Shown: positions 349 to 35,772 of the stretch, one piece after another | Numbering within the stretch: position 1 is the first letter of the stretch | Layout: the number at the start of each line of letters is the position of its first letter | Source of the DNA: Rhodospirillaceae bacterium | Lineage (GTDB): Bacteria > Pseudomonadota > Alphaproteobacteria > GCA-2731375 | NCBI GenBank assembly: GCA_018667855.1 | Contig: JABIRL010000175.1 | Coordinates: 1 to 35,772 of the forward strand | DNA length: 35,772 nucleotides | Direction: 5' to 3' | The notes under the pieces: generated by a model | What the model was told of the DNA's origin: nothing | The model's database searches: none | The model's input: only the letters and a program-made list of their open reading frames with translations | Program-made: the position numbers and the translations under genes

Positions 349-1605
349 CTAATGCAGCCACGGATAGGGGCCGGCGCCCCTTTCATCCAGTACCCGGCCG
401 GTGTGAAAACGGTCCAGGTTCAAATCCGCATTCAGTGCATGGGGCTGTCCCGTTGCCATCGTGTGGGCGAAGACCCAGCCCGAGGCTGGCGTCGCCTTGA
501 AACCGCCGTAACACCAGCCCCCATTCAGGAACAGGCCCGGCACCGGCGTGGTGCCGATGATCGGGCTGCCGTCCATGGTCATGTCCATGATGCCGCCCCA
601 GGTCCGCAGAATTCGCAAGCGGCTGAATTGGGGGAACAACGCCACCAGGCAGGCCGCCACATGCTCGATGATGGCCAGATTGCCCCGCTGGGCATAGGAA
701 TTGTAGCCGTCGATATCGCCGCCCATGACCAGCTCGCCCTTGTCCGACTGGCTGACGTACAGGTGCGCCGCGCCGAATGTGATGACGGTATCCAGGCATG
801 GTTTTACCGGTTCGCTGACCATGGCCTGCAATACGTGCGACTCGATCGGCAGGCGCACGTCCGCCATGGCCGCCAGCTGGCTGGAATGGCCCGCCACCGC
901 CAACCCGACCCGGCGGCAGGCGATATAGCCCCGGCTGGTCTCCAGCCCCGCGACGCCGCGCTGATCCCGGCGGATGCCGGTAACCTCGCAGTTCTGGATG
1001 ATGTCCACGCCGCGCCGGTCCGCCGCCCTGGCATAGCCCCAGGCGACCGCATCATGGCGCGCCGTGCCGCCGCGCCGCTGCAACAAGCCGCCTTCGACGG
1101 GGAAACGGGCTGTTTTCGATATATCCAATTCCGGGCAGAAGGCCGCGACGTCGTCGCGGTTCAGCAACTCGGCATCGACGCCGTTCAAGCGCATGGCATT
1201 GCCCCGGCGGCGGAAGGTTTCCAACTGGCCCTTGGAATGGGCCAGATTAAGCACCCCCCGTTGCGAGAACATGACGTTGAAGTTCAGGTCCTGACTTAGG
1301 CCTTCCCACAGCTTCATGCCGTGTTCATAAAATTTCGCGTTGGCGTCGAGCAGATAGTTGGAGCGCACGATGGTGGTATTCCGCCCCGTATTGCCGCCCC
1401 CGATCCAACCCTTTTCCAGTACCGCGATGTTGGTGAAGCCGTGGTTCTTGGCTAGATAATAGGCGCTGGCCAGGCCGTGGCCGCCGCCGCCCACGATGAT
1501 GGCGTCATATTCGGCCTTTGGTTCTGGGTCGCGCCAGGCCGGCTTCCAGCCCTTATGGCCGCCCAAGCCATGACGGAACAGGTTAGCCAGGGAGTACGAG
1601 CTCAC
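349..1605 (-). CDS. soxB: Sarcosine oxidase beta subunit
   Basis: This 418-residue flavoprotein subunit carries the site where sarcosine is oxidised. A dinucleotide-binding loop (IIVGGGGHG, about residues 37-44) binds FAD. The RRGGTARHDAVAW segment holds His184, which aligns with the histidine that carries covalent FMN in characterised beta subunits. The N-terminal LFRHGLGGHKGWKPAWRDPEPK stretch is diagnostic of this subunit rather than of the monomeric sarcosine oxidase. Length is normal for the family (about 405-420). The start is a GTG at 1605, eight bases after the FAD-linked oxidase stop, so the two genes are probably cotranscribed. No strong Shine-Dalgarno sequence is visible at the GTG. 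Confidence 0.93.
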   Translation of the reverse strand: MSSYSLANLFRHGLGGHKGWKPAWRDPEPKAEYDAIIVGGGGHGLASAYYLAKNHGFTNIAVLEKGWIGGGNTGRNTTIVRSNYLLDANAKFYEHGMKLWEGLSQDLNFNVMFSQRGVLNLAHSKGQLETFRRRGNAMRLNGVDAELLNRDDVAAFCPELDISKTARFPVEGGLLQRRGGTARHDAVAWGYARAADRRGVDIIQNCEVTGIRRDQRGVAGLETSRGYIACRRVGLAVAGHSSQLAAMADVRLPIESHVLQAMVSEPVKPCLDTVITFGAAHLYVSQSDKGELVMGGDIDGYNSYAQRGNLAIIEHVAACLVALFPQFSRLRILRTWGGIMDMTMDGSPIIGTTPVPGLFLNGGWCYGGFKATPASGWVFAHTMATGQPHALNADLNLDRFHTGRVLDERGAGPYPWLH

Positions 1606-1613
1606 TTAACGGC

Positions 1614-2993
1614 TCACGAAAAGATCTTGCCGGGATTGAGGATATTGTTGGGGTCCATCATGCCCTTCAACTGCTTCATCAAGGCGATTTCCGCCGGGCT
1701 GCGGGAGACCTCCAGATAATCCTTTTTCAATAGGCCGATGCCGTGTTCGGCAGAGACGGAGCCGCCCCGGCTGGCCAGGGGGTGATAGACCGAGTCGTTG
1801 ACCAGCTTTTTGGCATTGTCACCCGCTTCGCCGACCGCATAGACGATATGTAGATTGCCATCGCCAAGATGACCAAATACGGCTCGCTTGCGTTCAGGCC
1901 ATTCAGCCACGATTGGCACATCGATCTCATCCAGATAGTCCGGCATGGAGGCGATGGGCAGACCCACATCGAACCCGATGGTGGGGCCCCAGGTACGCAG
2001 ACTTTCCACATCATCCCGCAAGGCCCACATGGCCTGACGCTCGCCCTCGGATTTGGCGATCACCGCATCAACCATCAGGCCATCATCCATGGCCGCCGCC
2101 AGCATATTCTCAAACCGCTCGCCGTCGGTGTCCGGTTCGCCTCCCATCACTTCCATAAGGACATAAAAAGGATACTCGTCCGACAAAGGTTGCGCGGCGC
2201 CGTCACGGGAGGTCACCAGCTTGAAATAGTCCTGCCACATCACCTCGAATGCCGAGAGGCACCCGCCCGAGCGGCCATTGCAGAAATTCAACAGCTTTGG
2301 CAGCTTTTCGAAGCTATCCAGGGCCAGATACGCCGTCTGCTGGCTGGCCGGTTTCGGGCGCAGGCGCAGCACCAGGCGCGTCACCACACCCAAGGTGCCC
2401 TCACTGCCGATGAACATATGCTTCAGGTTATAGCCAGCGTTGTCCTTGATGATCTTGCCCAGGGCACTCAGCACCGTGCCGTCCGCCTGTACTGCTTCCA
2501 GGCCCAACACCATGTCCCGCGCCATGCCGTAGCGTACGACGCGGTTGCCGCCCGCGTTGGTGGAAATGTTGCCGCCCAGGGTGGCCGAACCGCGCCCGCC
2601 CAGATCCAGGGGAAAGAAAAATCCGGCTTCCTCGGCTGCTTCCTGCACGGTTTGCAGGGTGACGCCGGTTTGAACCGTCATGGTGGACGATGCGGGATCG
2701 ATCTCCTCAATCTCGCGCATGCGTTCCAGGCTTAGAATAACCTCGTCTTCGCCGGCGATATTGCCATCGACCAGGCCGGTTAAACCGCCATGGCTGACCA
2801 CGGCCTGGCCATTGTCGTTGCATAATTTAAGAACAGCCGAGACTTCCTCGGTGTTGGCTGGCCGCACCAGTACCTTGGCATCCAAGGTCTTGTCGGGATT
2901 TCGGTAGCCGGCCGACCGTCCCGATAATTCTTCCTTCAGGATCAGACCACGGTCGCCCACGATGTCCCGCAATTGCGCAATGAAATCAGCCAT
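1614..2993 (-). CDS. FAD-linked oxidase, D-2-hydroxyacid dehydrogenase type (GlcD/D-LDH family)
   Basis: The 459-residue protein has the two-domain layout of FAD-linked oxidases of the vanillyl-alcohol oxidase superfamily. The N-terminal PCMH FAD-binding fold shows SHGGLTGLVDG near residue 67 and the pyrophosphate-binding GGRGSATLGGNISTNAGG loop. The C-terminal substrate/cap domain shows GHLGDGNLH, in which the histidines bind the active-site metal, and ends with SAEHGIGLLKK and NPNNILNPGKIF-like motifs. Relatives oxidise D-lactate, D-2-hydroxyglutarate or glycolate; the substrate cannot be settled here. It is the first gene of the sarcosine oxidase run, which hints at a shared catabolic role but does not prove one. 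A weak hairpin (arms atcgcca/tggcgat, 3057-3077) lies upstream at the end of the next gene. Confidence 0.88.
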   Translation of the reverse strand: MADFIAQLRDIVGDRGLILKEELSGRSAGYRNPDKTLDAKVLVRPANTEEVSAVLKLCNDNGQAVVSHGGLTGLVDGNIAGEDEVILSLERMREIEEIDPASSTMTVQTGVTLQTVQEAAEEAGFFFPLDLGGRGSATLGGNISTNAGGNRVVRYGMARDMVLGLEAVQADGTVLSALGKIIKDNAGYNLKHMFIGSEGTLGVVTRLVLRLRPKPASQQTAYLALDSFEKLPKLLNFCNGRSGGCLSAFEVMWQDYFKLVTSRDGAAQPLSDEYPFYVLMEVMGGEPDTDGERFENMLAAAMDDGLMVDAVIAKSEGERQAMWALRDDVESLRTWGPTIGFDVGLPIASMPDYLDEIDVPIVAEWPERKRAVFGHLGDGNLHIVYAVGEAGDNAKKLVNDSVYHPLASRGGSVSAEHGIGLLKKDYLEVSRSPAEIALMKQLKGMMDPNNILNPGKIFS

Positions 2994-3076
2994 GACGTAA
3001 CGATAATCCCCAAAACAAATGAACGTTCCAGAGACAGTTTACGCTGGCTGACGGCAATCGCCAATAACCCTGGCGA

Positions 3077-3340
3077 TTAACCGCCGCCGATACGTGGTTT
3101 ACCGGTTTCGCTGGGTCCGAAGGCTTTGATCAGGACGGCGCTGCTTTCCTCCGCCAGCGCGACGCTATCGGTCAGCATGGCCATTATTTTAACATCATTG
3201 GCCAGAACTCTGCGGGCTTCCGGTCGATCATCATCGACAATCAATGCGGCGCGTTTGACAAGGTCGCTGCGCACCATGGCCAGCACATCCTCCAGACGGT
3301 GGCCGTCGGGATTATCGTCGGTTGCCAGAAAATGGGTCAT
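3077..3340 (-). CDS. Small conserved-looking protein of unknown function
   Basis: The 87-residue protein begins at an ATG at 3340 preceded by a good GGGAG ribosome-binding site. It is acidic to neutral and largely helical in appearance, with no signal peptide or membrane segment, and ends in a Gly-rich tail. Middle residues read as an amphipathic helix (RLEDVLAMVRSDLVKRAALI). I do not recognise the family. It lies 61 bases after the lipoprotein hydrolase on the same strand; that spacer holds a perfect 12-bp palindrome (atgaccggtcat, 3367-3378) that could be a protein-binding site for this gene's own promoter. A longer open frame continues to 3616 but overlaps the hydrolase and is not believable. 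Confidence 0.6.
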   Translation of the reverse strand: MTHFLATDDNPDGHRLEDVLAMVRSDLVKRAALIVDDDRPEARRVLANDVKIMAMLTDSVALAEESSAVLIKAFGPSETGKPRIGGG

Positions 3341-3401
3341 TATCTCTATCTCCCACCGATCACATGATGACCGGTCATATCCCATCGGGGTTAATAAGCG
3401 C

Positions 3402-4370
3402 TTACCGATCCTGCAACGTACCCGATGGCAGCGGCGCGTCGTGATCCTGGATCCAGGCCGCGATGTCTCGCCAGACGACTTCCGCCTGCAGATCCCTGAG
3501 CAACATGTGCCAGCCCTCGGGATAGAGCGCGAAACTCGGCGCCGTCGGTAGGCGTCGTACAGTGTCATGTACCGGTCCGGCGGGGACGATTTCATCGCGT
3601 TTGCCGTACAGCACAAGGGTGGGCTGCTTCAGATCCGGCGCCGCGTCATAGGCACGGCCCATAAGCTGGGTTACGCCATAGACCGCATCAATGCGGGTAT
3701 GGCGGATCACCAGTTTGTCCCGGCCCAGGGCGCGGAGCATGGGAATATTGTCGGTGGCCCGGCGGCGAAAGCCGCTTCCCGTGTCGGTGTTCCACGGCAT
3801 GACATGCGTGGACAACCACAGGCTGAAGCGCAACATGGGATGCATGGACTTGCCGCCCCACAGACCGGGCGCCACCAGGATGACGCCGGCGACTTCGTTT
3901 GCGGGCAGTTCCGACATGGCCAGCACGGCGACGGCCGCGCCCATGCTTTCGCCCAATACATACAGGGGCCGGTCGGGGTGACGCTTCGCGATCAAGTCCA
4001 AAATCGCGCGGGCGTCCGCCGCCATGGCCGCCGATCCGCCCCAGATCCGGGCCTGGGGCGAGGCGCCGAAACCACGTTGATCATAGGAATAGGTCGTGAT
4101 GCCGTGCCCCGCCCACCAGACGGCCGGCTCGTCGAAATAGTTGCTGTACATGTTGAAGCCATGCAGGGCGAGCATTACCGCATTTTCCTTACCCTTGGCC
4201 GGCCAGATTCTAAGCGGTAGTTTCCTGCCGTCCTCGGTCACGAAGTTGCCGCTCTCGATTATCGGCGCCATCAAGTCGGGGCGGAATTCCTGCACCCGCG
4301 GACTACAGGCGCCAAGCAAGACAAGAGCACACAAAAGAGTGGCGAATGCCGTAAGATGGCGGGAAATCAT
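3402..4370 (-). CDS. Lipoprotein alpha/beta hydrolase (monoglyceride-lipase-like)
   Basis: The protein has 322 residues from the ATG at 4370. It opens with a lipoprotein signal peptide: MISRH, a hydrophobic core, and a lipobox LGAC with Cys22 as the lipidation site, so it is probably membrane-anchored and periplasm-facing. The body is a serine hydrolase of the Hydrolase_4 (monoacylglycerol lipase) type: an LALHGF oxyanion motif, nucleophile elbow GESMG, an Asp in YGKRDEIVP, and the catalytic His in EGWHML. A lipid or ester substrate is likely but unproven. The open frame continues upstream to 5216 antisense to the nitroreductase; the lipobox decides the start. No Shine-Dalgarno is visible before this ATG because the 21-base gap to the divergent gene carries that gene's own site. 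Confidence 0.85.
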   Translation of the reverse strand: MISRHLTAFATLLCALVLLGACSPRVQEFRPDLMAPIIESGNFVTEDGRKLPLRIWPAKGKENAVMLALHGFNMYSNYFDEPAVWWAGHGITTYSYDQRGFGASPQARIWGGSAAMAADARAILDLIAKRHPDRPLYVLGESMGAAVAVLAMSELPANEVAGVILVAPGLWGGKSMHPMLRFSLWLSTHVMPWNTDTGSGFRRRATDNIPMLRALGRDKLVIRHTRIDAVYGVTQLMGRAYDAAPDLKQPTLVLYGKRDEIVPAGPVHDTVRRLPTAPSFALYPEGWHMLLRDLQAEVVWRDIAAWIQDHDAPLPSGTLQDR

Positions 4371-4391
4371 TGATCGGGAGGTAAAGTCGAT

Positions 4392-5234
4392 ATGAGCAAA
4401 CTGTCGGAACTTGCGGCACAGCGTTTCGGGATGGCATTGGATGTCGCGGAGGTGGCGGAAGATGCTCCGGGCGCGGAGGTCCTTGCCGCGCTGCTGTCCC
4501 ATCGCACCCACCGGCGGTTTCTCGATACGCCCGTGGCGGAGGATACCCTGAACCTGTTGTACGCCTGCGCCTTGTCGGCGCCGGCCAAATCCGATTTGCA
4601 ACAGGTCGCCATTATCCGGGTGCGCGATGCGGCCAAGCGCCAGGCGATCGCCGATTTGATGCCCGATATGGCTTGGATTGGCACCTGTCCCGTGTTTTTG
4701 CTGTTTTGCGGCGATAGCCGGCGCATTCGCAGATTGTGCGAGTTGCGCGGTCACACCTTCGCGAACAATCATCTGGACGCCTTTCTGAACGCGGCGGCGG
4801 ATACGGCCCTGGTCATGCAAAATTTCATCACCGCAGCCCAGGCCGCCGGCCTGGGCTGTTGCCCGATCTCGGTGGTGCGCAACCACATAAACGCCATCGC
4901 CGAAATCACGGCCTTGCCAGAGCATGTATTCCCGGTTGCCGGCATGTGCCTCGGTCATCCTTCCCACGCCGGTTTCGTCTCGACCCGGTTGCCGCCGGAA
5001 ATGATCGTACATGACGATCAATATGACGATAGCCAGCTGCCCACGCAAATTGATGCCTATGACCAGCGGCGCAACGGCATTTATACAATTCCACCGGAAA
5101 AGTACCGGATGACGGCGGAACATGGCAGTCCTGATTTCTATGGTTGGTCGGAGGATAAGACCCGGCAGGTTTCCGTGCGGGAACGTGAAGATCTGGCGGA
5201 ATATCTTCGCCGCCATGGCTTCAGCCTGGATTGA
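4392..5234 (+). CDS. Nitroreductase-family FMN oxidoreductase
   Basis: This 280-residue protein is an NAD(P)H-dependent flavin oxidoreductase of the nitroreductase superfamily, closest in style to the NfsA/FRP branch. The FMN-phosphate-binding SHRTHRRF motif sits near residues 36-43, followed by SAPAKSDLQQ, and the conserved GLGCCPISVVRN and VFPVAGMCLGHP segments bind FMN and form the dimer. The C-terminal arm (residues 225-280) is typical of the larger NfsA-like members. Substrates of the family include nitroaromatics, quinones and free flavins; the physiological one is unknown. A strong GGGAGGT ribosome-binding site ends 10 bases before the ATG. It is divergent from the lipoprotein hydrolase with only 21 bases between the start codons. 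Confidence 0.88.
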   Translation: MSKLSELAAQRFGMALDVAEVAEDAPGAEVLAALLSHRTHRRFLDTPVAEDTLNLLYACALSAPAKSDLQQVAIIRVRDAAKRQAIADLMPDMAWIGTCPVFLLFCGDSRRIRRLCELRGHTFANNHLDAFLNAAADTALVMQNFITAAQAAGLGCCPISVVRNHINAIAEITALPEHVFPVAGMCLGHPSHAGFVSTRLPPEMIVHDDQYDDSQLPTQIDAYDQRRNGIYTIPPEKYRMTAEHGSPDFYGWSEDKTRQVSVREREDLAEYLRRHGFSLD

Positions 5235-5264
5235 CCCCGATTGATAGCGGACTGATAGCGAACG

Positions 5265-5846
5265 TCAAATCAGCTCGCGCACCCGCCGGCGAAGTGCGGG
5301 AAGAACCTCCGCGTCGAACCAGGGATTGCGTTTTTGCCAACCTACCGTGCGCCAGGACGGATGCGGCAGCGGCATGAATTCCGGCGCATGGTCGCGCCAG
5401 GCCCGCACGGTTTCGGTCAGGTTTCGAGCTCTTTTCGAGCCAAGGAAGCGTTTTTGACTGTAAGCGCCCGCCAACACGGTCATTTCAATATTGGGCAGGT
5501 GTTCCAATAACGGGGGATGCCAGGTTGGCGCGCATTCGGGCCGGGGCGGCTTATCGCCGCCCTTGGGCAGACGGCCAGGATAACAAAACCCCATGGGTAT
5601 GATGGCCACTTTATTTTGATCGTAAAACGTATCCTTGTCGATATTCAGCCAAAGTCGCAAGCGATCACCGCTGGGATCGTCCCATGGAATGCCGCTGGCA
5701 TGGACCTTGGTGCCCGGCGCCTGGCCCACGATTAACAATCGCGCCGAAACTCGTGCACGCAACACTGGTCGGGCGCCAAGGGGCAGGTGCTCTTCACACA
5801 GGCGGCACTGCCGGATTTCAGCCAGTAATTTTTCCAGATTACCCAT
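5265..5846 (-). CDS. Uracil-DNA glycosylase family protein, probable 4Fe-4S type
   Basis: The protein has 193 residues from the ATG at 5846; a TTG at 5855 would add three residues. Motif A is GQAPG (residues 40-44) and the distal motif is PHPS, the two catalytic and DNA-intercalating signatures of the UDG superfamily. Four cysteines, Cys14, Cys17, Cys87 and Cys104, have the C-x2-C ... C-x16-C pattern close to that of family 4 (4Fe-4S) enzymes, which supports both the start choice and an iron-sulfur cluster. It would remove uracil from DNA in base excision repair. The GIPWDDPSGDRLRLWL segment marks a subgroup that is widespread but little studied. It stands alone, convergent with the nitroreductase. 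Confidence 0.85.
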   Translation of the reverse strand: MGNLEKLLAEIRQCRLCEEHLPLGARPVLRARVSARLLIVGQAPGTKVHASGIPWDDPSGDRLRLWLNIDKDTFYDQNKVAIIPMGFCYPGRLPKGGDKPPRPECAPTWHPPLLEHLPNIEMTVLAGAYSQKRFLGSKRARNLTETVRAWRDHAPEFMPLPHPSWRTVGWQKRNPWFDAEVLPALRRRVRELI

Positions 5847-6018
5847 CGCCGCCAAGTTCCCGGTTCGATTTATCCCATGCCTGGGACGCCAAATTGTTAG
5901 GAAATATTAACCATACGTTAACTTCAACCCATTACTGGTAAACGAGGCCGATTTTCACCAGTTGGCGGCGAACAGTGCCGGCCGCCCTTCAATCAGTTTA
6001 GGCCGCGTTGGCATCGCT
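5847..6018. other. Divergent intergenic region with no gene
   Basis: This gap separates the minus-strand glycosylase from the plus-strand histidine kinase and must hold both promoters. It is noticeably AT-richer than its surroundings around 5895-5940. A TTG at 5962 opens the histidine kinase frame with 19 extra residues, preceded by a weak GAGG at 5944-5947. No convincing repeat, terminator or RNA gene is visible. Confidence 0.4.
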
Positions 6019-8127
6019 ATGAAAGCGAAGGGAATCGCAGCGTTGGAGACCATGCTTTTGACATTTGGTATCATGGGTGTTTTCACCCTGGTTGCCGTGT
6101 CCGTCGTGGTTTTCCTGAACCTGCGGTCTGCCACCGGATCAGGGCCTGACATCTGGCGAGACGTGGAAATCGTCGAGGCGCTGCCCATCGCGGTGGTCTA
6201 TTTTGATGCGAATGACCGTTTGCGGCAGGTCAATGATATGTTGTTGCAGTTGATGCCCACGGTGCATGGCCTCAATCACCAGAGTATTTGCCGCCTGGAT
6301 TTTTTCCGCGCGCTGTCGGAAGCGGGTATCTTTGTCGATGCGTTGGACCGTGTAGAGGAATTCCTGGCGGACGTGTCGGAGCGGTCTCGGCCGCCTCGCG
6401 TGGAGTGGGAAGTCAGCCTGACCGATGGGCGCAGTCTGCATATCTCGGAAAGAACCACCGAAAACGGCGGGCGGCTGATCGTTTGCGCTGATATCACCAC
6501 CCAGAAACAGCAAAGCTGGGCTTTGGACGAAAAATCAGAACTGTTGCATGCCTCATTGGAAAGTATTGATCAGGGCGTCGTGGTTTATGGCGCCGATGGC
6601 GGTATGTTGACCTGGAACCAGCGTTACTTCGAATTGCTTGGCGTCACTCCCGAGGTGGCCAAGGTTGGCTTGTCCGTGGAGACGATGTGTAGCTACCTGG
6701 GCGAAGCCGGCGTTTTCCAGGATAACAGCCCGGACTATATTTCCCGCCGGGCGAAAGAGATTTTGGCGTGCGAGCCGCCGCAACATGAAATGACGCGGCG
6801 CGACGGGCGGACACTGGATGTGCGGCGCAATTCAATGCCCGACGGCGGTGTCTCCATAACCATCACCGATGTGACGGCCTTGAGGCAGGATCAGGAAGAC
6901 TTGCAGCGGCGATCAACGGAGCTGGAGGAAATTTTCGCAAATCTGCACGTGGGTATCGCTTTTGCCGACGGTGAAGGCGATATCGTCGCCATGAACGAGA
7001 TGTTATTGGAGTTGCAGGGACTCGACCCCGAGCAAGTTACGCAATGCCGTAGCTTGCGTGATGTCATGCGGCTGAACGCCCAGAATGGGGAATTTGGACC
7101 CGGTGACATCGATGAACTGGTTGAAACACACATCAGTTTTGCCTTCGGCAAAATGCCGAACACATATCAGCGTATCCGACCCAATGGCCAAATTCTAGAA
7201 TTCCGCACTTTCGCCATGCCCAGCGGCGGCGTACTGGCCGTTTGTCAGGATATCACCGCGCAACAGCGATCAGAACAGGCGCTGCGGGTCGCCAAGGAGC
7301 AGGCGGAACTCGCGAACCGGGCGAAATCGGAATTCCTGGCCAATACCTCCCATGAGTTGCGTACGCCCCTGAACGCTATTATCGGCTTTTCGGAAATTCT
7401 CAGAGGTGAGCTTTTCGGGCCGCTCAGTTCGCCGAAGTATCTGGAATATTCTCAAGATATCAACGATAGCGGCCAGCATCTTTTGTCCATCATCAATGAC
7501 TTGCTTGATTTGGCCAAGGTCGAGGCCGGCCATTTCGAATTGTCTGAAGAGCATTTCCAGCTTTCCGACGCGGTAGCGGCGACATCGCGGCTGACCCGTG
7601 AGCGGGCCCACCAGGGCCGTGTAAAGGTGGTAAGCGAAATGGACCACGGTATTGATCTGATCAACGCCGATCAACGGGCCTTGAAACAGATCGTGCTCAA
7701 TTTATTGACCAATGCGATCAAATTTACGCCTGAAGGCGGCCAGGTCACCATCGGCACCAGCCCCGGCCGGGACCCTAAAACCGGTAAGGATTGTATTGAA
7801 CTATGGGTTACCGACACGGGAATTGGTATGAAGGCGGAAGATATTCCCATGGCCCTTACGCCGTTCGCGCAGCTGGAGGGTTCATTTACACGTAAGTTCG
7901 AGGGCACGGGACTGGGTTTGCCCTTGGCCCGCCATTTATGCGAGCTGCATGGCGGCAGCCTGGCGATCGAGTCCGTTCTCGGGCAAGGCACGACGGTAAC
8001 GGTGCGATTGCCGGGTGATCGTCTGCTGGGCAGCAACGACGATGCCCGCCAGGAGCTGGTCGCGGCGACCGGCCCGACGGGACCACAGGGTGAATTGTTC
8101 GAGATGGCGCAATCTGCGTCCAATTGA
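6019..8127 (+). CDS. Membrane sensor histidine kinase with three PAS domains
   Basis: The protein has 702 residues from the ATG at 6019; a TTG at 5962 would add 19. One membrane segment (about residues 13-35) is followed by three PAS-like units starting near [36 protein letters not shown] and [18 protein letters not shown] coiled linker leads to a HisKA domain with the phospho-acceptor in [16 protein letters not shown]. The ATPase domain has an N box ([13 protein letters not shown]), G1 (DTGIGM), an F-box-like FAQLEG and G2 (GTGLGL). The HisKA sequence, including LFGPL and [11 protein letters not shown], is of the PleC/DivJ type known in alphaproteobacteria to act with single-domain regulators such as DivK. 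There is no receiver domain and no response regulator gene nearby, so its partner lies elsewhere. The PAS units suggest sensing of a cytoplasmic cofactor or redox signal. Confidence 0.9.
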
Positions 8128-20338: not shown

Positions 20339-22999
20339 TCAGGAAAATAGAGTCAGGACCATCTGCGGGTTCGAATTGGCGATGGACAGGGCCTGGGTGC
20401 CCAGCTGTTGTTTGATCTGCTCGCGCTGCTGTTTGGCCATCTCCTCGGCCAGATCAGCATCAACCATGGCGCCGATGGCGCCCTTGAAGGTCGTGATCAG
20501 TTTGCTGACAAACTCTTCCTGAATTTCCAGGCGTTTGGCCCCCGCTCCCCATTCGGAGAGATATCGCCCCAGGCGCTCGATGGCATTATCGATGGCGGTT
20601 ACTGCTGAACTGGCGCCCGATACCACATCGATGGAACCGAGGCCCAGATCACCGCTGCCCGTGGGATGTTTTTTGAAACGGACGGAATTGCCCAGAGTGT
20701 CGATCTGCGAGCCGAAATCATCCCGGACCGCTTCCAGGCGGGAAAGATCGTGGGACGTCGCGTTCACGGTCACCACGCCGTCTATGCCATCGCCGTCGAA
20801 GTCGCCGACCGCTATGCCGCCCGGCCCGGTACCAACCGCATTGCTGACGGCGGTCTGAAAGGTGCCATCGCCGTTTCCCATCAGAAACGAAACCGTGTTG
20901 TCGCCGCTGTTGGACGTCGCGATATCGGTGATGCCGTCGCCGTTGAAATCTCCCGCCGCGACGCCTTTTGGTGCATCGCCGACGGACACTGTGGTCGTCG
21001 AATTGAACGCCCCTCCGTATCCGTTTGGATTTCGCAAACTTATGCTGACAGTATCATCGGTTTCATTGGCGATTGCGATATCCATCAAGCCGTCGTTATT
21101 AAAATCCGCCGCAGTGATGGCGCCTGCGCCTGCTCCAATACCATGAGTATAGGAGTTCGAGGAATTGGGGTGGTTTGGCGAGGTGGTAAAACCCGGCGAA
21201 CTGTACAGTGGTATGGAGGTGGAAAATCCATTCGAATCCTGTATCAGTACGGCCGATGCCGACGTGACGGATGCCGTCAGGTCATTCCCGGTTTCACCCG
21301 GTGTCGAGGGGCTGATTACGATTGAACCTTTGATATTGGGATTGAGATCGGAACCATCGTTATTGTCCAAGATTACGGCGCCCGATATGTTCGTCGAAAC
21401 TGTTAGGTCATTCGCCGCCGCACCGGGCTCCTCGAAATGGACTATGGTATTGTTGCCCTCGGCATAGAAACTACCGGACACTGAACCGCTGAATGTTCCT
21501 TCATTGAGACTTGATCCTGTCACGGCCCCGACGAATGCCTGTGTATCGGCAATTAACCCATTGCCGATGGTAAAATCCGTTCCAGCCGTCAAGGTTACGC
21601 CACCGATGGTGAAAGTGTCTCCGTTCGAAAAACCGGTGCCTGGGATCAGCATTCTGATGTTGGAAACCGTAGTCTGAGTACCAAAGCCGGTACCGTTGTA
21701 AAAGCTATTGGTAACCGAGAGGTTGCCAGTATAGGAACCTTCCGTAACTGCCAGTCCGCCGAAGGCTCTCGAAACCGCAATTTGATCAGTCAAGAAGGAC
21801 CTTACATTTCCAGCCAGAGCTAGCACGTCCGGGTCATTTACGTCGATTTCCACGCCGACCGTCAGTGTTTTGTCGCCGATCGTGAATGTGTCACCCGCGT
21901 TGAGAAGCGTATCCGTGAACCCAAACACGATATTCGAATTTGGTGGGCCGATGAATGGCGCAACACTTCCAAGGGCACGCAGCGTCGAAGCAATGTTAAG
22001 ATCGGGATGTGCAACGACTGCGTGTGCGAAAGTTCCAGATGAATTTTCAAGCGCAGCGATTGCGTCCGGACTTCCATGGGTTGCGAATTTTTGATCTACG
22101 GAAAGGTTCCCGCTACCGTCATTTAAAAGCACTGAGACAGTATGATCATCCGGATTGGTCACCATGACATCAAGATCATCGTCACCATCGAAGTTCGCAA
22201 CAGTCAAACCGCCGATCCGGCCCGATCCGACGTTGGTCGCCGTTGCCGCCTGAAAAGTATTGTCGCCGTTGCCCTTGTAAGTCAGAACACGGCCATCTTC
22301 CGTTGAAATAACAATGTCTTCATGTCCATCGCCATCCATGTCTCCGGTCGTCATATCGCTTGCGTCTGTGCCGATGCTTGTTTCCACAGGAGATTTGAAC
22401 GTGGATTCCAAAAGAACACGTTGATTTTCAAGAATGGAAAACGTCTGCGCGCCTTTGTTCAGCACGGCCACGTCGGTTTCGTCGTCGGAGTTGAAGTCGG
22501 CGGTTACGACTTTGGTCGGCTGCGGCGTGCCCGAGGCCGAGACCGCGTGGGATGTCGCGGGGCCATAGGTGAGAGGCTGGCGGCTGACCAGGCTGACGCC
22601 ATCGAATTCGGCGCTAGTAGTGATGGTGTCGATCTGTCCGCGCAGGGCCTCAAGCGCCTGCTGAATTTTCGTGCGGCTGGATGTACCCATGCCGGGGTCG
22701 CGGGCCTGAGTCGCCTTGCCCTTCATTTCGATCAACAGATCCATGATCGAACGGCCGGCTTCGATGGTAGTTTCCAGAATGGCGCCGCTGCGTGCCAGGT
22801 CGGTCTTCACCGAATGCCAGCCGGCCACATCGCCGCGCATGCTCTGCGCGATGGAATAGCTGGCGGCATCATCCTGGGGCCCGTTGACCCTTAATCCGGT
22901 GGTGATGTGCAATTGCGTCCGCTCAAGCACACCATTGGTCTGCTGCATCATGCGCAGAGCCGTGGCCGCCGCATTATTTGTGTTGACGGAAATCGTCAT
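20339..22999 (-). CDS. Giant flagellin with FG-GAP beta-propeller insert
   Basis: The protein has 886 residues from the ATG at 22999 (MTISVNTNNAAATAL). Residues 1-140 are an alphaproteobacterial flagellin N-terminus (ITTGLRVNGPQDDAASYSIAQ, SRTKIQQALEALRGQID) and residues 785-886 the matching C-terminus (AEEMAKQQREQIKQQLGTQAL ending VLTLFS), which form the filament core. Between them lie FG-GAP/VCBS blades with calcium-loop motifs near residues 167, 220, 269, 632, 683 and 732 (for example GDFNGDGITDI), and a degenerate one near 311-345, making seven. Residues about 350-626 interrupt the degenerate blade and carry two diverged repeats beginning AGDTFTIGDKTLT and NGDTFTIGGVTLT. The propeller would stand on the filament surface. 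Most flagellins are 270-500 residues. A longer frame to 23047 crosses the promoter and is rejected. Confidence 0.9.
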   Translation of the reverse strand: MTISVNTNNAAATALRMMQQTNGVLERTQLHITTGLRVNGPQDDAASYSIAQSMRGDVAGWHSVKTDLARSGAILETTIEAGRSIMDLLIEMKGKATQARDPGMGTSSRTKIQQALEALRGQIDTITTSAEFDGVSLVSRQPLTYGPATSHAVSASGTPQPTKVVTADFNSDDETDVAVLNKGAQTFSILENQRVLLESTFKSPVETSIGTDASDMTTGDMDGDGHEDIVISTEDGRVLTYKGNGDNTFQAATATNVGSGRIGGLTVANFDGDDDLDVMVTNPDDHTVSVLLNDGSGNLSVDQKFATHGSPDAIAALENSSGTFAHAVVAHPDLNIASTLRALGSVAPFIGPPNSNIVFGFTDTLLNAGDTFTIGDKTLTVGVEIDVNDPDVLALAGNVRSFLTDQIAVSRAFGGLAVTEGSYTGNLSVTNSFYNGTGFGTQTTVSNIRMLIPGTGFSNGDTFTIGGVTLTAGTDFTIGNGLIADTQAFVGAVTGSSLNEGTFSGSVSGSFYAEGNNTIVHFEEPGAAANDLTVSTNISGAVILDNNDGSDLNPNIKGSIVISPSTPGETGNDLTASVTSASAVLIQDSNGFSTSIPLYSSPGFTTSPNHPNSSNSYTHGIGAGAGAITAADFNNDGLMDIAIANETDDTVSISLRNPNGYGGAFNSTTTVSVGDAPKGVAAGDFNGDGITDIATSNSGDNTVSFLMGNGDGTFQTAVSNAVGTGPGGIAVGDFDGDGIDGVVTVNATSHDLSRLEAVRDDFGSQIDTLGNSVRFKKHPTGSGDLGLGSIDVVSGASSAVTAIDNAIERLGRYLSEWGAGAKRLEIQEEFVSKLITTFKGAIGAMVDADLAEEMAKQQREQIKQQLGTQALSIANSNPQMVLTLFS

Positions 23000-23018: not shown

Positions 23019-23050
23019 AAATTGCACCTTGTAACAATAAGGTGCAATTT
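23019..23050. repeat. Perfect 12-bp inverted repeat at the flagellin promoter
   Basis: The arms aaattgcacctt (23019-23030) and aaggtgcaattt (23039-23050) flank an 8-base spacer. The outer arm supplies the -12 element of the sigma-54 site and the expected transcription start falls in the spacer, so the repeat acts at the DNA level, perhaps as an operator, more likely than as an mRNA hairpin. Confidence 0.75.
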
Positions 23051-23058
23051 TCATGCCA
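23043..23058 (-). promoter_or_regulatory. Sigma-54 promoter of the flagellin gene
   Basis: The minus strand reads TGGCATGAAAATTGCA, which matches the sigma-54 consensus TGGCACG-N4-TTGCA at all but one position, with the correct 11-base TGG to TTGC register. Transcription should start near 23032, leaving a leader of about 33 bases. Late flagellar genes of alphaproteobacteria such as Caulobacter use this type of promoter with an FlbD-type activator. Confidence 0.75.
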
Positions 23059-25236: not shown

Positions 25237-25941
25237 TCATCGGCGAATTTGCACGCAAGTTCGAATCAGACCGTTGGAAAATGAATAGGACGCCTCGAAT
25301 TCCATGTCCTCTTGCAGCTCCGCCGTCAGGGTTTGATTTAGCCGCATTCTGGCCTTCCCATCGCCGAAGCCGGCCAGGCCAATGTCATGAAAATCGATTA
25401 GTCTCCCCAGGCGGGGGTACAACGCCTTGTAGAGGCATTCCTTCAACGAGAATACCAACGTCAGATGATGTTCGAATGAATGTCCCGTCCTTCCCCGCAG
25501 GATGGCGTTGTCGGTTTTGGTCAGCACAGCCGGTTTGATGTCGCGCGCCTGATCCGCCGGTATCAAGGCTTCGAAGTCTATCCCCAGTCCCAGATACATG
25601 GAGGCAGGTGCGACGACGGCCCCCGCCAGCCCGCCGGAATGGGTGATCGAGCCCACAAACCCATCCGGCCAAATGGGCGAGCGGTCGGAATGGACGCCGA
25701 CGTCCTTGATCGGGCAACCGGACAGGGACAAGGCCTGCCGCGCACACATGCGTCCGGCCAGAAACTCCGCCTGTCGCCTGGCCACGGCACCGGCCAGCGC
25801 CGGGGGCAGAATTATATCGTTGGTGCTAAAGTCATCCACCTGGAACGTGCGCCAGTCAAACGCCGCCTCGACGGCAATTGACGGTCCCTCGAACGGCGTG
25901 CGCCGCCACGATTCCGAGACATTCCTCAGTTCTATCTTCAC
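25237..25941 (-). CDS. 4'-phosphopantetheinyl transferase (EntD-like)
   Basis: The enzyme moves phosphopantetheine from CoA to the serine of carrier domains. The core signatures of the EntD/Sfp superfamily are present: RRQAEFLAGRMCARQAL, PIWPDGFVGSITHS, the Mg-binding LGIDFE, and FSLKECLYKAL. The start is uncertain: the frame is open to a TTG at 26076 (279 residues), but a GTG at 25941 gives 234 residues, nearer the usual EntD length. A 14-bp tandem duplication (25931-25958) lies at that point; being not a multiple of three it would have shifted any upstream frame, which favours the shorter product. It is the obvious activator of the NRPS carrier domains at 30730-35772. Confidence 0.85.
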   Translation of the reverse strand: MKIELRNVSESWRRTPFEGPSIAVEAAFDWRTFQVDDFSTNDIILPPALAGAVARRQAEFLAGRMCARQALSLSGCPIKDVGVHSDRSPIWPDGFVGSITHSGGLAGAVVAPASMYLGLGIDFEALIPADQARDIKPAVLTKTDNAILRGRTGHSFEHHLTLVFSLKECLYKALYPRLGRLIDFHDIGLAGFGDGKARMRLNQTLTAELQEDMEFEASYSFSNGLIRTCVQIRR

Positions 25942-25958
25942 TACTCTATCTTCACTAC
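25931..25958. repeat. 14-bp perfect tandem duplication at the start of the PPTase gene
   Basis: The unit tctatcttcactac occurs twice in direct succession. It lies at the GTG proposed as the start of the phosphopantetheinyl transferase. A 14-bp step changes frame, so sequence upstream is unlikely to be part of the original coding region. Confidence 0.9.
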
Positions 25959-26136
25959 GGCTCTCGTTACGTTGAATAGCTTCCGCGAACGGTAAGATGA
26001 GCCTTTCCACCGCAAAACGCCATGCCGGGCTGCCGCGGATTATCGTAACGCCGCCATTTTCAACATAGACCTTCAATTCAACTGGCGATCATGCAACAGT
26101 TACCAATGTGATGCTTGGATCTTCGGGGAATTTGCT

Positions 26137-30729: not shown

Positions 30730-33700
30730 CTATGCCTCTTGTTCGTCCCAAAGCCGTTCTATCTGCCTTGAGAGCGCGGGCAAATCACCGGAGCGCAGAA
30801 TTGTATGATGCGATCCCGGCATGGTCTTAACCGCCGTGCTGTCAAAGACACCGGCCCATCCAAGGTCGGGTGCCGCGCCCTCCCGTGGTGTGTCCGATGC
30901 GCGTATGACCGCGGCCGGACCGGGAATACGTCCAAACGAATGGTTCGCGGCGATGCGAATGTTTTCCCGTACACGATCAACCGTTGCCCCGTCGGCGCCG
31001 GCGGCTTTGGCCGCCGCTGCAATCTCCGTTTCGTCGGCGGAGTGTTCGTTTTCATGAGGTACCGGCCGAGCGGCGTCGATCAGAACGACCCTGACATCAC
31101 GCCCTTGGCGTCGCAGCTGTTCGGCGACCGCTGCCGCAATGGTCGCGCCCAGGGACCAGCCGCCAAGCAGCACTGTATCGCCATCCCCGGCAGCGGTGTC
31201 GATCGCCTGCGCATAGCCCTCCGCCAATGTTTCCAGGGAATCAAATCCCTGACCTTGTTCCACAACGTTGATGTGACGGTCGCCGTGCCAGTTTCCGGCC
31301 AATTGGTCATAGCAGTGCCCCGATCCATCGACGGCATGGAACAGGAAGGCCGCCGGGCCGGTACCATGGCGCAGGGTGCGGATCACGCAGGCATTCTGCG
31401 TCTCGCCCGACGTGAACAATCCTGCCAGACCAGCCGCCGTTGGGTTCGCGAAAACCGCGGGCAATGGAACCTTTCGATCCAGTTTCCCGGACAGCGCGGC
31501 GGCCAAGCGAACCACAAGCAGGGAATGCCCGCCCAGGACAAAGAAATTCTGATCTCGGCCCGGTCGTGCGGGCAGCGCCAGGATATCTGCGAACACATCC
31601 AGAATGACGGCTTCCAGTTCCGAACAGGGCTCAGCCCCCGCACTGGGTTCGCCCGCTGCAATTGCCTGATCCGGATGCGCGGCGGCTTTCCGTGGATCCG
31701 ATAATGCCAAGCGATCAATCTTTCCGGTCGCCGTTACGGGCATATGATCCAGCACGGTGAGGAAGGCCGGCAACATGGTTTCGGGCAAATGGATCGCCAA
31801 TGCCTCCCGTATGCTTGCTGCCTCATCATGGGCCGGTCCGGTTACCCAGGCCGCGAGTGCGGGTCTGCCCGTGGCATCGGGAACGGTTTTCGCCGCCGCC
31901 TGCCGAACGCCGGCGACGGCCTGCAGCGCGGCTTCGATTTCGTCCAATTCCATGCGCACGCCACGCACTTTGACCTGGCGGTCGTCGCGGCCGATGAATT
32001 GTATGCGGACATTGGTTCGAATGCGCGCCATATCGCCCGTGCAATAAAGCCGGCGGCCATCATCGGCGCCAGGGTCCGCGATGAAACGTTCGGCGGTGAT
32101 CGCCGGTGCACCCACATAGCCAAGGCCGACGCCGATACCGCCGACCCACAACTCGCCGACCGCGCCGGGTATGGCCGGCATGGCGTAGCGGTCCATCACC
32201 ATCGCCGTCATCCCGACGATGGGTGTGCCGATGTCCGGTGTATCGCTGCCCGCAGCGCAAACGCCGTGGGAGGCGCAGACCGTCGCTTCGCACGGCCCAT
32301 AGGCATTGAACATCCGCCGACCCGGAGCCCAGGTTTCCATCAAATCGGCCGACAACGGCTCGCCGGCCGCGACGATTGTCGTCAGCTCCGGCAGATCGAC
32401 CTGGCCCAGCGCCGCCAGGGCGGACGGCGTGATGGTTACATGACTGACCGCGCGCTCCCTCAGGCACACCGCAAGTGGTTCGCCGGCGTGCAGGGCGGAC
32501 CGGTCCGCCAGCACTAATGTGCCGCCGGCGCCGAGTGTAATGAAAACTTCCCAGACCCAGGCATCGAATGCCGGCGCGGCCAGCTGCAATACCCGGCTGC
32601 CCGGTTTTATGGACAGATCATTGCCAAGGGTTCGGATAAGGTTGGCCAGGCCGACCCGGCTCAGCAGCGCCGCTTTCGGCTCTCCCGTGGTGCCGCTCGT
32701 GAATTGAACATAGGAGGCCACGGTCCCGTCGATCCCCTCAGTCTCGATAGCAAGCAGCGTCGATCGCATTTTGTCCCGACGGGCCTGGGGAAGTGCGGGA
32801 TCGAACAACGCCAGCACCTTTTGTCCAAGGATCGCCGCCAACGCCTGCACAACGCGTTCAACCGGGTCGTCGGTATCGATGATTGATACTTTTCCCGGTC
32901 CAGGAATAATGTCCTGCGCCCGGGCCCGCAGGTCGCCGTAAGTCAAGGTGACGTCGCCGGATTCCACGGCGGGCAGGCTATCGTATTCCGCAAGCGCCCG
33001 CAGCAGTAGCAGGCTTAACTCCGGCGGTGCGTCCACCTTCGGGCCGGCCAAGGACGCGCGGTCAAGGTCTTGCGCGGCCACCGTCGGCAATCTCCTGATT
33101 GGGCAATCGCTTTGCTGGACCAAACCTTCAAGTATCATGACAAATGAACGGGTCCAGGCGGCAACAGTCTCGCTGTCCAACGACGCATAGTCGAAAATGA
33201 AGCCGCCGGTGATAGTGCCGTCTTCCTGGCCGGACAGGCTTAAGGCCAGATCAAAGGGCGCCGTAGCCACGTCAAGGGGGTAGGCTTCCGGCTGGGGCTG
33301 TTCATCTGCAACCAAATCATCAAGCTGCGGGTTGCCTTCCCGCCAGTCCAGCACTGTTTGCAACAGGGGCGTCCGGCCTTCGAAGCGTTCGGGATTAGTG
33401 GCCTCGACGATGCGCGCCAAGGGTTGATCGGCATGGCTCAACAATTCCGCCATGGTGTCCCGGATTTGTTGGAGCAGCATCTCGCCGGTTTCGCCACCGG
33501 CAATTTTAACGCGAAGCGGCAGGGTATTCAGAAAATAGCCTGCAACGTCGTCGAAACCCTCCGGGCGATCACTTACGGGAATGCCGAAAATCAGGTCCCC
33601 CGCGCCGGTCAGCCGATGCAGGAAAATAGTATAGGCGGCAACCAGCACATTCTGGATCGAACCGCCGTTCCTTCGGGCGAGGGAGGCCGCCGCATTCGTC

Positions 33701-35772
33701 AACGTCTTGTCGATGCGAAACGGCACGGAACCGCCCACGGGGCTGTGGTCACGCGTCCGCGGGCGATCAAGTGGCACCGCGAGCGGGCTGGGCGGAACCG
33801 CGAGACGTCTTTGCCAATACGCAATCTGCCCATCCGCCGTTGCTTGCATCCGCCGTTCGCGCCATTGGGCATAGGCGCGATAGTTGGCCTTGGGCGCATC
33901 GCCGAGCGTCCCACTGGTTAACAAGGCAATCAGATCGCCGAGTATCAAGCCAAGCGAGGTGTTGTCGGAGACGATATGATGCAGCGAAAGTATCAGGACG
34001 CCATCTCCGTCCGCCGTTTCCACGAAACTCAACCGACTGGTTTTTCCCCGGTCAATCCGGAATGACAGGGCCGCGTCCCCCTGCGCCGTCGCGCGCACCA
34101 GATCGTCCAGGGTTTCGTACCGGCCAACGGTTCGGTTCGTGATGGTCGGCACCCCGGCGGACAGGATTTCGACCTCCGATCCGGTATCACCGCTTGTATA
34201 TGCGGTTCGCAAGACAGGATGGCGTTCGGCCAACATCCCGAACGCGGCGCCAAGTGCTTCTTCCGCGTTCGGTAATTTCAGTTTGATTGCCGCTTGCATG
34301 ACATAGGCCGTGGCCTGCCCGCCCAGTTCATTTTCAAGCCAAAGCTGCTGCTCGCCCGGTGAAGCCTGGGGCGCCTCATCCGTCTGCAATTGTAGTTGCG
34401 GTCCCAGATCCACGGTCGATCCCGGCGCTGTGCCCGCGGCGCAATTCCCTTGCGCGATCAATGCCGCGACACCCCGGGCGGTGCGCCCGCCATGAACGAT
34501 ATCAGCGGGAACCTCCTGCCCAAGACCACGTCTCAGCCGCGCCACCAGACGGATCGCGTTCAGGGAGGTCCCGCCGGCTTCGAAAAAATCGGTATCCCCG
34601 TCCATCTCCGGTGTGTCGAGAATGGTGCGATATAGATCAAGCACCAGGGGCAGGTCCGCTGGAGCCGCCGGTTGCGCTGGAAACATTGTCAATGCCAGGC
34701 CTTGCGGCGTCGGGCTTAACGCCAGATCAGCATATTCGATGGTCTGTCCGAAGTGACGTTTCAGCCGCGCGATTAGCCTTATGGCGCCAAGCGAGGTGCC
34801 GCCGGCGGCGAAGAAATCCGTATCCGCGCCCGCGTCTTCCTCTTGCAGGACATTTCGCCAGATGGTGATCAGCGCTTCCAGCTTTTCCGGATCGGCAAGT
34901 TCCTCCTCGCCACTTTCCCGGGCTATCGATTGATCAAGCGCGACGCCTGGCCTGCCGTCCATGATGATCGCGGCGATGTCCAGCGATGCCAACGCGCCCC
35001 GGTCGACCTTGTCATTGGCGGTCAAGGGCAGGCTATCGCGAAGGACGAACCGGTCCGGCACCATATAGGGCGGTAATCGAGAGGTTAGCGCCGCGTTGCA
35101 GGCTTCAACCGTCGCCGCGCCGGTATAAAAGGCCACCAGGCGCTGATCGCCGCCGCCGCTCATGGCGACGACGGCGGCACCGCTTACGCCGTCGACCGCC
35201 TGCAATCTGGCTTCAATTTCTCCAGGCTCAATGCGGTAGCCACTGACCTTCAGTTGATTATCATTCCGGCCCAGGTATTCCAGATTTCCGTCCGCTCCCA
35301 GTCTGACAAGATCACCGGTCCGATACATCCGGCTTCCCGGGTGGTCCGTGAACGGGTCGGCGATGAAGCGGTCCGCCGTCAATCCCGCCTGGCGCCAATA
35401 TCCCCAGCTGACACCGGCCCCGCCAATATAGAGCTCTCCCACCATGCCGGCCGGTATCGGGGCGAGCTTTCGATCAAGGACATATAATTGAGTGTTCCAG
35501 ATCGCCTTGCCGATTGGCTCGCTACGCCCATCGGGGGCTGAATTTCCGAGCTTGAAAGCCGTGCATCCCACCACTGTTTCTGTGGGGCCGTATTCGTTGA
35601 AAATTGCCACCGACGGCGCCGCCTTGCGCCAGGGGGTCGTCGTGCTTTTCGTCAAGGCCTCGCCGCCGACCACGAATTTGCGGCTGCCGGTGCTTTGCTT
35701 CGCGATGGGATGCAGCTCCGCCAACAGGCCCAGATGGGCCGGGGTCAGCTTCACGAATCCGTAGTCCGCACC
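30730..35772 (-). CDS. Nonribosomal peptide synthetase, A(partial)-T-T-C-A-T-TE (5' end cut by window edge)
   Basis: Numbering from the GTG at 35754; the frame is open to the window edge, so the true start lies outside. Domains: end of an adenylation domain (to about residue 255; FNEYGPTET, YRTGDL, NDKVDR), two carrier domains in tandem (serines 321 and 397, both in a GGTSL motif), condensation (about 455-890; active site HHIVSDN, 592-598), adenylation (about 905-1350; FTSGTTGEPK, AYGPCEAT, TGKIDR), carrier (Ser1411 in GGHSL), and thioesterase (about 1457-1674; GWSLG with the nucleophile Ser1534, His1649 or 1650). The visible specificity residues read K-V-G-E-V-G-K for the first A domain (Asn/Asp-like) and D-A-W-T-V-A-A-V-C-K for the second (Phe-like). 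The thioesterase shows this is the last synthetase of its line. Confidence 0.93.
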   Translation of the reverse strand, partial: GADYGFVKLTPAHLGLLAELHPIAKQSTGSRKFVVGGEALTKSTTTPWRKAAPSVAIFNEYGPTETVVGCTAFKLGNSAPDGRSEPIGKAIWNTQLYVLDRKLAPIPAGMVGELYIGGAGVSWGYWRQAGLTADRFIADPFTDHPGSRMYRTGDLVRLGADGNLEYLGRNDNQLKVSGYRIEPGEIEARLQAVDGVSGAAVVAMSGGGDQRLVAFYTGAATVEACNAALTSRLPPYMVPDRFVLRDSLPLTANDKVDRGALASLDIAAIIMDGRPGVALDQSIARESGEEELADPEKLEALITIWRNVLQEEDAGADTDFFAAGGTSLGAIRLIARLKRHFGQTIEYADLALSPTPQGLALTMFPAQPAAPADLPLVLDLYRTILDTPEMDGDTDFFEAGGTSLNAIRLVARLRRGLGQEVPADIVHGGRTARGVAALIAQGNCAAGTAPGSTVDLGPQLQLQTDEAPQASPGEQQLWLENELGGQATAYVMQAAIKLKLPNAEEALGAAFGMLAERHPVLRTAYTSGDTGSEVEILSAGVPTITNRTVGRYETLDDLVRATAQGDAALSFRIDRGKTSRLSFVETADGDGVLILSLHHIVSDNTSLGLILGDLIALLTSGTLGDAPKANYRAYAQWRERRMQATADGQIAYWQRRLAVPPSPLAVPLDRPRTRDHSPVGGSVPFRIDKTLTNAAASLARRNGGSIQNVLVAAYTIFLHRLTGAGDLIFGIPVSDRPEGFDDVAGYFLNTLPLRVKIAGGETGEMLLQQIRDTMAELLSHADQPLARIVEATNPERFEGRTPLLQTVLDWREGNPQLDDLVADEQPQPEAYPLDVATAPFDLALSLSGQEDGTITGGFIFDYASLDSETVAAWTRSFVMILEGLVQQSDCPIRRLPTVAAQDLDRASLAGPKVDAPPELSLLLLRALAEYDSLPAVESGDVTLTYGDLRARAQDIIPGPGKVSIIDTDDPVERVVQALAAILGQKVLALFDPALPQARRDKMRSTLLAIETEGIDGTVASYVQFTSGTTGEPKAALLSRVGLANLIRTLGNDLSIKPGSRVLQLAAPAFDAWVWEVFITLGAGGTLVLADRSALHAGEPLAVCLRERAVSHVTITPSALAALGQVDLPELTTIVAAGEPLSADLMETWAPGRRMFNAYGPCEATVCASHGVCAAGSDTPDIGTPIVGMTAMVMDRYAMPAIPGAVGELWVGGIGVGLGYVGAPAITAERFIADPGADDGRRLYCTGDMARIRTNVRIQFIGRDDRQVKVRGVRMELDEIEAALQAVAGVRQAAAKTVPDATGRPALAAWVTGPAHDEAASIREALAIHLPETMLPAFLTVLDHMPVTATGKIDRLALSDPRKAAAHPDQAIAAGEPSAGAEPCSELEAVILDVFADILALPARPGRDQNFFVLGGHSLLVVRLAAALSGKLDRKVPLPAVFANPTAAGLAGLFTSGETQNACVIRTLRHGTGPAAFLFHAVDGSGHCYDQLAGNWHGDRHINVVEQGQGFDSLETLAEGYAQAIDTAAGDGDTVLLGGWSLGATIAAAVAEQLRRQGRDVRVVLIDAARPVPHENEHSADETEIAAAAKAAGADGATVDRVRENIRIAANHSFGRIPGPAAVIRASDTPREGAAPDLGWAGVFDSTAVKTMPGSHHTILRSGDLPALSRQIERLWDEQEA

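Follow-up and report, generated by a model that had tools for sequence, protein, structure and literature searches.

A flagellin gene with FG-GAP propeller blades between its cores, and related genes in other genomes of the class

A flagellin gene with an FG-GAP blade array

The stretch analysed here (hereafter the window) is the 35,772-nt contig JABIRL010000175.1 of a Rhodospirillaceae bacterium, taken from a draft genome of 371 contigs. One gene on its minus strand (20339..22999; all features of the gene given below lie on this strand) encodes a protein in which the two conserved cores of a flagellin enclose a series of FG-GAP blades that probably form a seven-bladed propeller. Judged by both cores, the protein is a flagellin, and the same architecture in three further genomes of the class identifies the FG-GAP flagellin as a recurrent design and not a one-off. 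We lean, with some reserve, toward the reading that the propellers are heads in the outer region of the flagellin that likely act as binding modules on the filament.

The gene forms an uninterrupted open frame of 886 codons plus stop, running from an ATG at 22999 down to 20339. Flagellin_N (PF00669) covers residues 5-139 (E 1.9e-21, 77.0 bits against a Pfam cut-off of 26.6), corresponding to an N-terminal core at residues 1-140 (22580..22999), and Flagellin_C (PF00700) covers residues 801-885 (E 6.3e-15, 55.7 bits against a cut-off of 23.0), corresponding to a C-terminal core at residues 801-886 (20342..20599); both cut-offs are passed by one single protein. Among NCBIfam models, the best flagellin model reached 94.6 bits, compared with 37.9 for the hook-associated FlgL, both scores lying below the respective full-length cut-offs. 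An earlier sequence-only reading of the window had described the ends of the protein as ordinary flagellin, with which these matches agree; its count of 886 residues also stands. Relative to ordinary flagellins from the same family of genomes, the N-terminal core shares at most 55% identity and the C-terminal core 56% over residues 793-886. Five further flagellin genes, with open frames of 278-327 codons, were found in the genome.

Six profile-supported blades and a putative split fourth blade

Between the cores, FG-GAP_3 (PF13517) matches six stretches (E 2.8e-31, 108.4 bits against a cut-off of 26.9) and FG-GAP (PF01839) matches four (E 3.9e-17, 62.2 bits against 22.1). A blade profile that we built from 90 blades of non-flagellin FG-GAP proteins only likewise marks six: blade 1 at residues 154-194 (22418..22540; near-canonical calcium loop at 168), blade 2 at 206-254 (22238..22384; canonical loop at 220), blade 3 at 256-301 (22097..22234; near-canonical loop at 269), blade 5 at 620-669 (20993..21142; canonical loop at 632), blade 6 at 670-719 (20843..20992; canonical loop at 684) and blade 7 at 719-756 (20732..20845; near-canonical loop at 733, with three strands in the structural model). 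Blade 1 is the weakest of the six, at 7.6 bits. The six clear FG-GAP/VCBS blades of the sequence-only reading are thus recovered by a profile trained outside the flagellins. Its calcium-loop motifs are borne out by three canonical and three near-canonical sequence motifs of the DxDxDG type. As a control, the calcium-loop motif was absent from 26 of 27 other flagellin-core frames of at least 380 aa, taken from the loci collected up to that point, with a single motif in a subtilisin flagellin.

A fourth blade would be expected within residues 302-619. By eye, residues 303-334 (21998..22093) resemble the first two strands of a blade without its calcium loop, and residues 584-615 (21155..21250), which have a weak profile match nearby, resemble the last two; we treat these as the putative halves of blade 4. 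With blade 4 read in this way, an insert of ~250 residues between blades 3 and 5 (residues ~335-583, 21251..21997), overlooked in the sequence-only reading, sits inside it. This orphan insert is internally duplicated (E 6e-9), residues 371-382 and 462-473 being alike. A search with residues 335-600 gave nothing in PHROGs up to E 1 and nothing significant in Pfam (best E 0.12); of the 375 other class genomes, 3 showed marginal matches (best E 6.5e-4). A loop-like stretch at 545-551 within the insert, unmarked by the blade profile, is a rival candidate for the loop of blade 4. A strand-linker profile extends from blade 3 into residues 288-315 (6.9 bits), which speaks for the one degenerate blade proposed earlier, while the score of the split blade, weighed below, does not. 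Overall, a degenerate seventh blade in this position is likely, though unproven.

Predicted fold

The structure prediction proposed with the sequence-only reading was run with AlphaFold on residues 131-800, using an alignment with 14 FG-GAP rows. A full-length alignment, with its register off by one blade, went unused, and fragment rows mostly fell on blades 5-7; the 131-800 alignment was in register save for blade 4, and neither homologues with a better fourth blade nor other cuts repaired the register there. The model has a mean predicted local distance difference test score (pLDDT) of 59.4 and a predicted template modelling score (pTM) of 0.57. Blades 1-3 and 5-7 are well modelled, with values of 80-95 for the most part and local dips to 63, while the insert is of low confidence. 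In the model, a short strand at residues 149-152 precedes blade 1 and is a candidate closing strand for the three-stranded blade 7, an arrangement that strand-swap closure of a ring would give.

A Foldseek comparison of the model with the PDB placed CRTAC1 first (E 8.8e-8), followed by KICSTOR chains, BBSome propellers, aldos-2-ulose dehydratase and LGI1; chains from other complexes (DDB1, SF3B) also appear, integrin alpha IIb is present with E 1.2e-4 over 164 columns, and the lectin PVL stands at rank 49. A control, the non-flagellin protein L056 with seven loops, folded on the same kind of alignment, gave a pLDDT of 82.7, a pTM of 0.85 and 28 strands. Target-normalised TM scores of control and window models were 0.78 and 0.74 against 9kzc_B, 0.72 and 0.71 against 4v0n_D, and 0.49 and 0.47 against 9etn_A, and these near-equal values favour a seven-fold geometry for the modelled window propeller. 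The seven-bladed, integrin-alpha-type propeller of the sequence-only reading is therefore upheld in part: the TM scores lie near those of a seven-loop control and the relatives described below are all seven-bladed, whereas the deviations from the targets are about twice those of the control and the integrin match is short. We use 'integrin-like' to describe the fold only.

Recurrence in other genomes

A search of 385 class genomes with the C-terminal part of the protein pointed to further FG-GAP flagellins, and the total found in the analysis stands at seven in four genomes: one in the window's own genome, one in G067, four in G132 and one in G235. The Pfam combination that the sequence-only reading had suggested looking for recurs among the six additional proteins from three other genomes: every one matches FG-GAP_3 and Flagellin_N, and five also match Flagellin_C, the exception being a truncated protein. 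By the blade profile, each of the six has seven blades (one shows an extra fragment at -1.9 bits, which we did not count), and each has seven calcium loops when near-canonical ones are counted. The FG-GAP/Cage motif had no match in any of the seven FG-GAP flagellins; a comparison FG-GAP adhesin also gave none, so this search had no passing positive control.

Three of the G132 genes stand in tandem (L129, 974-6500) with one base shared at each junction, and the fourth runs off the end of its contig (C16, L185). In G067 (L188, 302-11237), the FG-GAP flagellin lies directly beside an ABC transporter, an HlyD protein and a 1386-aa FG-GAP/cadherin/RTX adhesin-like protein; the last is not an evident donor of the propeller, its similarity to the flagellin propeller being just 28 bits.

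A profile made from the alignment of six FG-GAP flagellins gave full-length matches above 730 bits in at least 4 of the 385 class genomes (the window's own, G067, G132 and G235), which are the genomes that supplied the profile, so that no new genome was added; in the phylum sample, at least 1 of 398 genomes, the window's own alone, had such a match. Three candidates per genome were scored in both searches, hence both counts are lower bounds. Further full-length profile matches in G392, G197 and G379 (class) and G649 (phylum) were set aside: the G392 protein is a subtilisin flagellin, and FG-GAP repeats were unseen in the others, with a calcium-loop motif count of 0 for G197 and G379. A whole-protein search of the named genome collection yielded 71 loci, none with a flagellin core in a frame of at least 380 aa. 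Viral contigs gave no loci with the whole protein and, with the six-flagellin alignment, at least 14 loci among the best 600 candidate stretches, matched over query residues 136-773 only. Of the plasmid records, 227 match the G067 flagellin, and in none does one place cover 80% of it.

Origin and swapping of outer domains

In a tree of the flagellin cores (64 rows), a branch with support 100 separates a set of 46 rows from one of 18. The larger set contains the window protein, in no closer supported group, along with the plain flagellins of its genome family; the smaller contains the other FG-GAP flagellins, with those of G132 and G235 beside the plain flagellins of those two genomes. Forcing the six FG-GAP rows into one clade, in a test with 61 rows, lowered the log-likelihood by 147, with a p-value of 2e-59 in the approximately unbiased test (p-AU). 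The fewest changes number three, and a single clade of G067 with G132 and G235 was not rejected (p-AU 0.13). Since a single clade of all is rejected and the smaller one tolerated, we infer that there were at least two origins, or that the propeller was twice transferred, each time into a different flagellin; the tree program warns of possible misplacement of long branches. The topology suggests that a closed propeller was inserted between flagellin cores more than once.

Other folds were seen in the same position. A flagellin frame in G235 (L186, 3111-4820), its 5' end cut by the contig end, carries a PD40 TolB-like propeller in place of FG-GAP, and this genome holds both a PD40-propeller and an FG-GAP flagellin. 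Two 728-codon flagellins (L146 in G228, 1295-3478; L178 in G392, 408-2591) have a subtilisin-type protease middle (PF00082, E 4e-46 and 1.5e-47) with Asp, His and Ser motifs recognised by eye, which would make them a second kind of putative proteolytic flagellin. The occurrence of a PD40 propeller and a subtilisin domain in the same slot supports the view that whole folds can be taken up in the outer region of flagellins. Flagellin frames of 1594 codons (L134 in G163, 2876-7657) and 1618 codons (L138 in G314) were also met, the middle of the former without an FG-GAP motif.

Promoter and gene neighborhood

A sigma-54 type promoter box, TGGCAT-N5-TTGCA, lies upstream of the gene (23043..23058, minus strand), its GG 58 bases before the ATG. 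This is the sole exact match within the window; with one mismatch allowed, 4 matches were observed against 3.04 expected. A looser core pattern, with four occurrences in the window when both strands are counted, places a box no more than 100 bases upstream from four of the five other flagellin genes of the genome, the one on C15 lacking it. A box common to four of the five sister flagellins suggests flagellar expression. Among the genes tested around it in the window are those for a glutathione S-transferase, a PhyH dioxygenase, a TRAP transporter, an HCO3- transporter family protein, a 4'-phosphopantetheinyl transferase and a nonribosomal peptide synthetase. The last two, at 25237-26076 and 30730-35754, the synthetase being large, have radical SAM and TauD genes between them, and together have the look of a natural-product cluster.

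Relation to known systems

Flagellins with large outer domains (D2/D3 and others) hold their outer region between the same two cores, in folds different from the FG-GAP propeller. A survey of flagellin variable regions found 61 domains, and the top ten given in its Table 1 do not include FG-GAP (Eckhard et al. 2017, PMC5595980). Flagellinolysin, as described there, resembles the present case in having a folded functional domain between the two flagellin cores and a scattered occurrence across lineages, and differs in that its domain is a gluzincin protease with an HExxH motif in place of an FG-GAP propeller (PMC5595980); the window protein has no HExxH zinc motif. With bacterial FG-GAP/VCBS and integrin alpha propellers it shares repeats of ~50 residues with DxDxDG loops and, probably, the seven repeats per ring (Chouhan et al. 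2011, PMC3192720), and it departs from them in lying inside a flagellin, in having no detected Cage motif, in its degenerate blade and in its large insert. The string 'flagell' is absent from the main text of that article on bacterial integrin-type propellers (PMC3192720). The propellers of CRTAC1, KICSTOR and LGI1 match the blades on both sides of the insert, PVL matching over 166 alignment columns only, and these four share 6-21% identity with the window propeller. To our knowledge, none of them belongs to a filament. Among the literature matches listed, an FG-GAP flagellin is not named in titles or abstract openings, and a term search of PMC6943638 and PMC7018530 gave no match. Flagellins with inserted domains are a known kind, and, among those literature matches, the FG-GAP propeller as the inserted domain appears to be new.

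Proposed role and alternative explanations

Export through the flagellar channel needs an unfolded chain. Under the reading that we favour, the subunit would be exported in that state, the propeller remaining unfolded in the cell at low free calcium and folding outside as its loops fill with calcium. Because the chain ends of a propeller lie side by side, it can sit between the core halves and leave them intact; the cores would then polymerise with the plain flagellins of the cell, and propeller heads would project from the whole filament or parts of it. Propellers of this sort, such as those of integrins and lectins, often serve in binding, hence an adhesive or capture reading: the heads would most likely bind glycans, particles or other cells, and the filament would become a multivalent fibre for calcium-dependent adhesion or capture. 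Calcium binding, an adhesive function and exposure of the heads on the filament are all inferred here.

Several observations pull the other way. Only three of seven blades have canonical calcium loops, and blade 4 has none; the split blade (~303-334 plus 584-615) scores 7.9 bits, a value reached by 14 of 200 shuffles (mean 4.0, standard deviation 2.6) and not significant. The mean pLDDT of the model is low, with most of the insert below 50, and in the alignment parts of the insert were paired with blade 4 of the homologues, so the residues that fill the fourth slot of the model may be wrong. Root-mean-square deviations are about twice those of the control (9.9 vs 4.2, 10.7 vs 4.4 and 9.2 vs 4.9), and the match to integrin alpha spans only 161-164 columns, as against ~460 in the control. 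The branch leading to the cores of the window protein is long (1.04, against a median of 0.12 for end branches), possibly a sign of relaxed constraint. The gene stands apart from flagellar genes, those tested around it in the window being non-flagellar, and the adhesin beside the G067 flagellin is only distantly like that flagellin's propeller. No FG-GAP flagellin was found in 14 other genomes of the window's family, mostly drafts; the families of G132 and G067 were sampled with two genomes and one, respectively.

The propeller might instead be a bulky outer domain without a ligand, which thickens, stiffens or masks the filament in the manner of D2/D3, or varies its surface against phages or grazers. 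Long flagellin frames with very different middles are common in the class sample, and the occupation of the same slot by another propeller and by an enzyme in other class genomes fits a free swapping of outer domains; yet all six relatives retain seven blades and, with near-canonical ones included, seven calcium loops, which is more order than bulk needs, and we regard this explanation as rather unlikely, although a serious one. The long core branch, the lack of a counterpart in the 14 relatives, the degenerate blade 4 and the orphan insert would all suit a recent insertion that is decaying or was never assembled, with blade 4 and several loops already decayed and no working filament subunit as the product. 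An open frame of 886 codons, two cores over their Pfam cut-offs, a promoter box and clean seven-blade versions in other genomes argue against such decay, and we judge it improbable.

An enzymatic propeller, such as that of aldos-2-ulose dehydratase, draws on the presence of that protein among the fold matches; no enzyme family was found in Pfam or NCBIfam up to E 1, there is no HExxH motif, and we give this idea very little credence. The sequence-only reading had itself named, as a possible refutation, an assembly artefact fusing a flagellin gene with a separate FG-GAP gene. The genome is indeed a draft, and G+C drops to 0.51-0.52 in the middle of the gene from 0.55-0.61 at its two ends. Both cores nevertheless match flagellins of their own family best or nearly best, the gene lies inside a 35.8 kb contig, and a genome-wide FG-GAP_3 scan found just one match apart from the FG-GAP flagellin gene. 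As the same architecture occurs in three other assemblies, with three tandem copies in one of them, such an artefact is very unlikely and its probability close to negligible.

Implications

Binding heads on the filament, the reading that we prefer, open onto a wider conjecture, which we put forward only tentatively: flagellar filaments may have been turned at least twice independently into calcium-switched receptor fibres by way of a ready-closed propeller, with the flagellin core acting as a general display scaffold in the class. Propellers could have been favoured for this, as their chain ends meet and their calcium-dependent folding would be postponed until the subunit is outside. Flagella are usually viewed as organs of propulsion with incidental stickiness. 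If the binding-head reading is true, filaments built with a recurrent flagellin of this kind, bearing a receptor-type propeller, would carry binding heads in a dense array dedicated to that purpose. The passage of a calcium-folded domain through the flagellar channel would then become a question of its own, and such filaments would be a natural case of proteins displayed on a polymer; the recurrence across flagellin lineages makes the question testable in several organisms.

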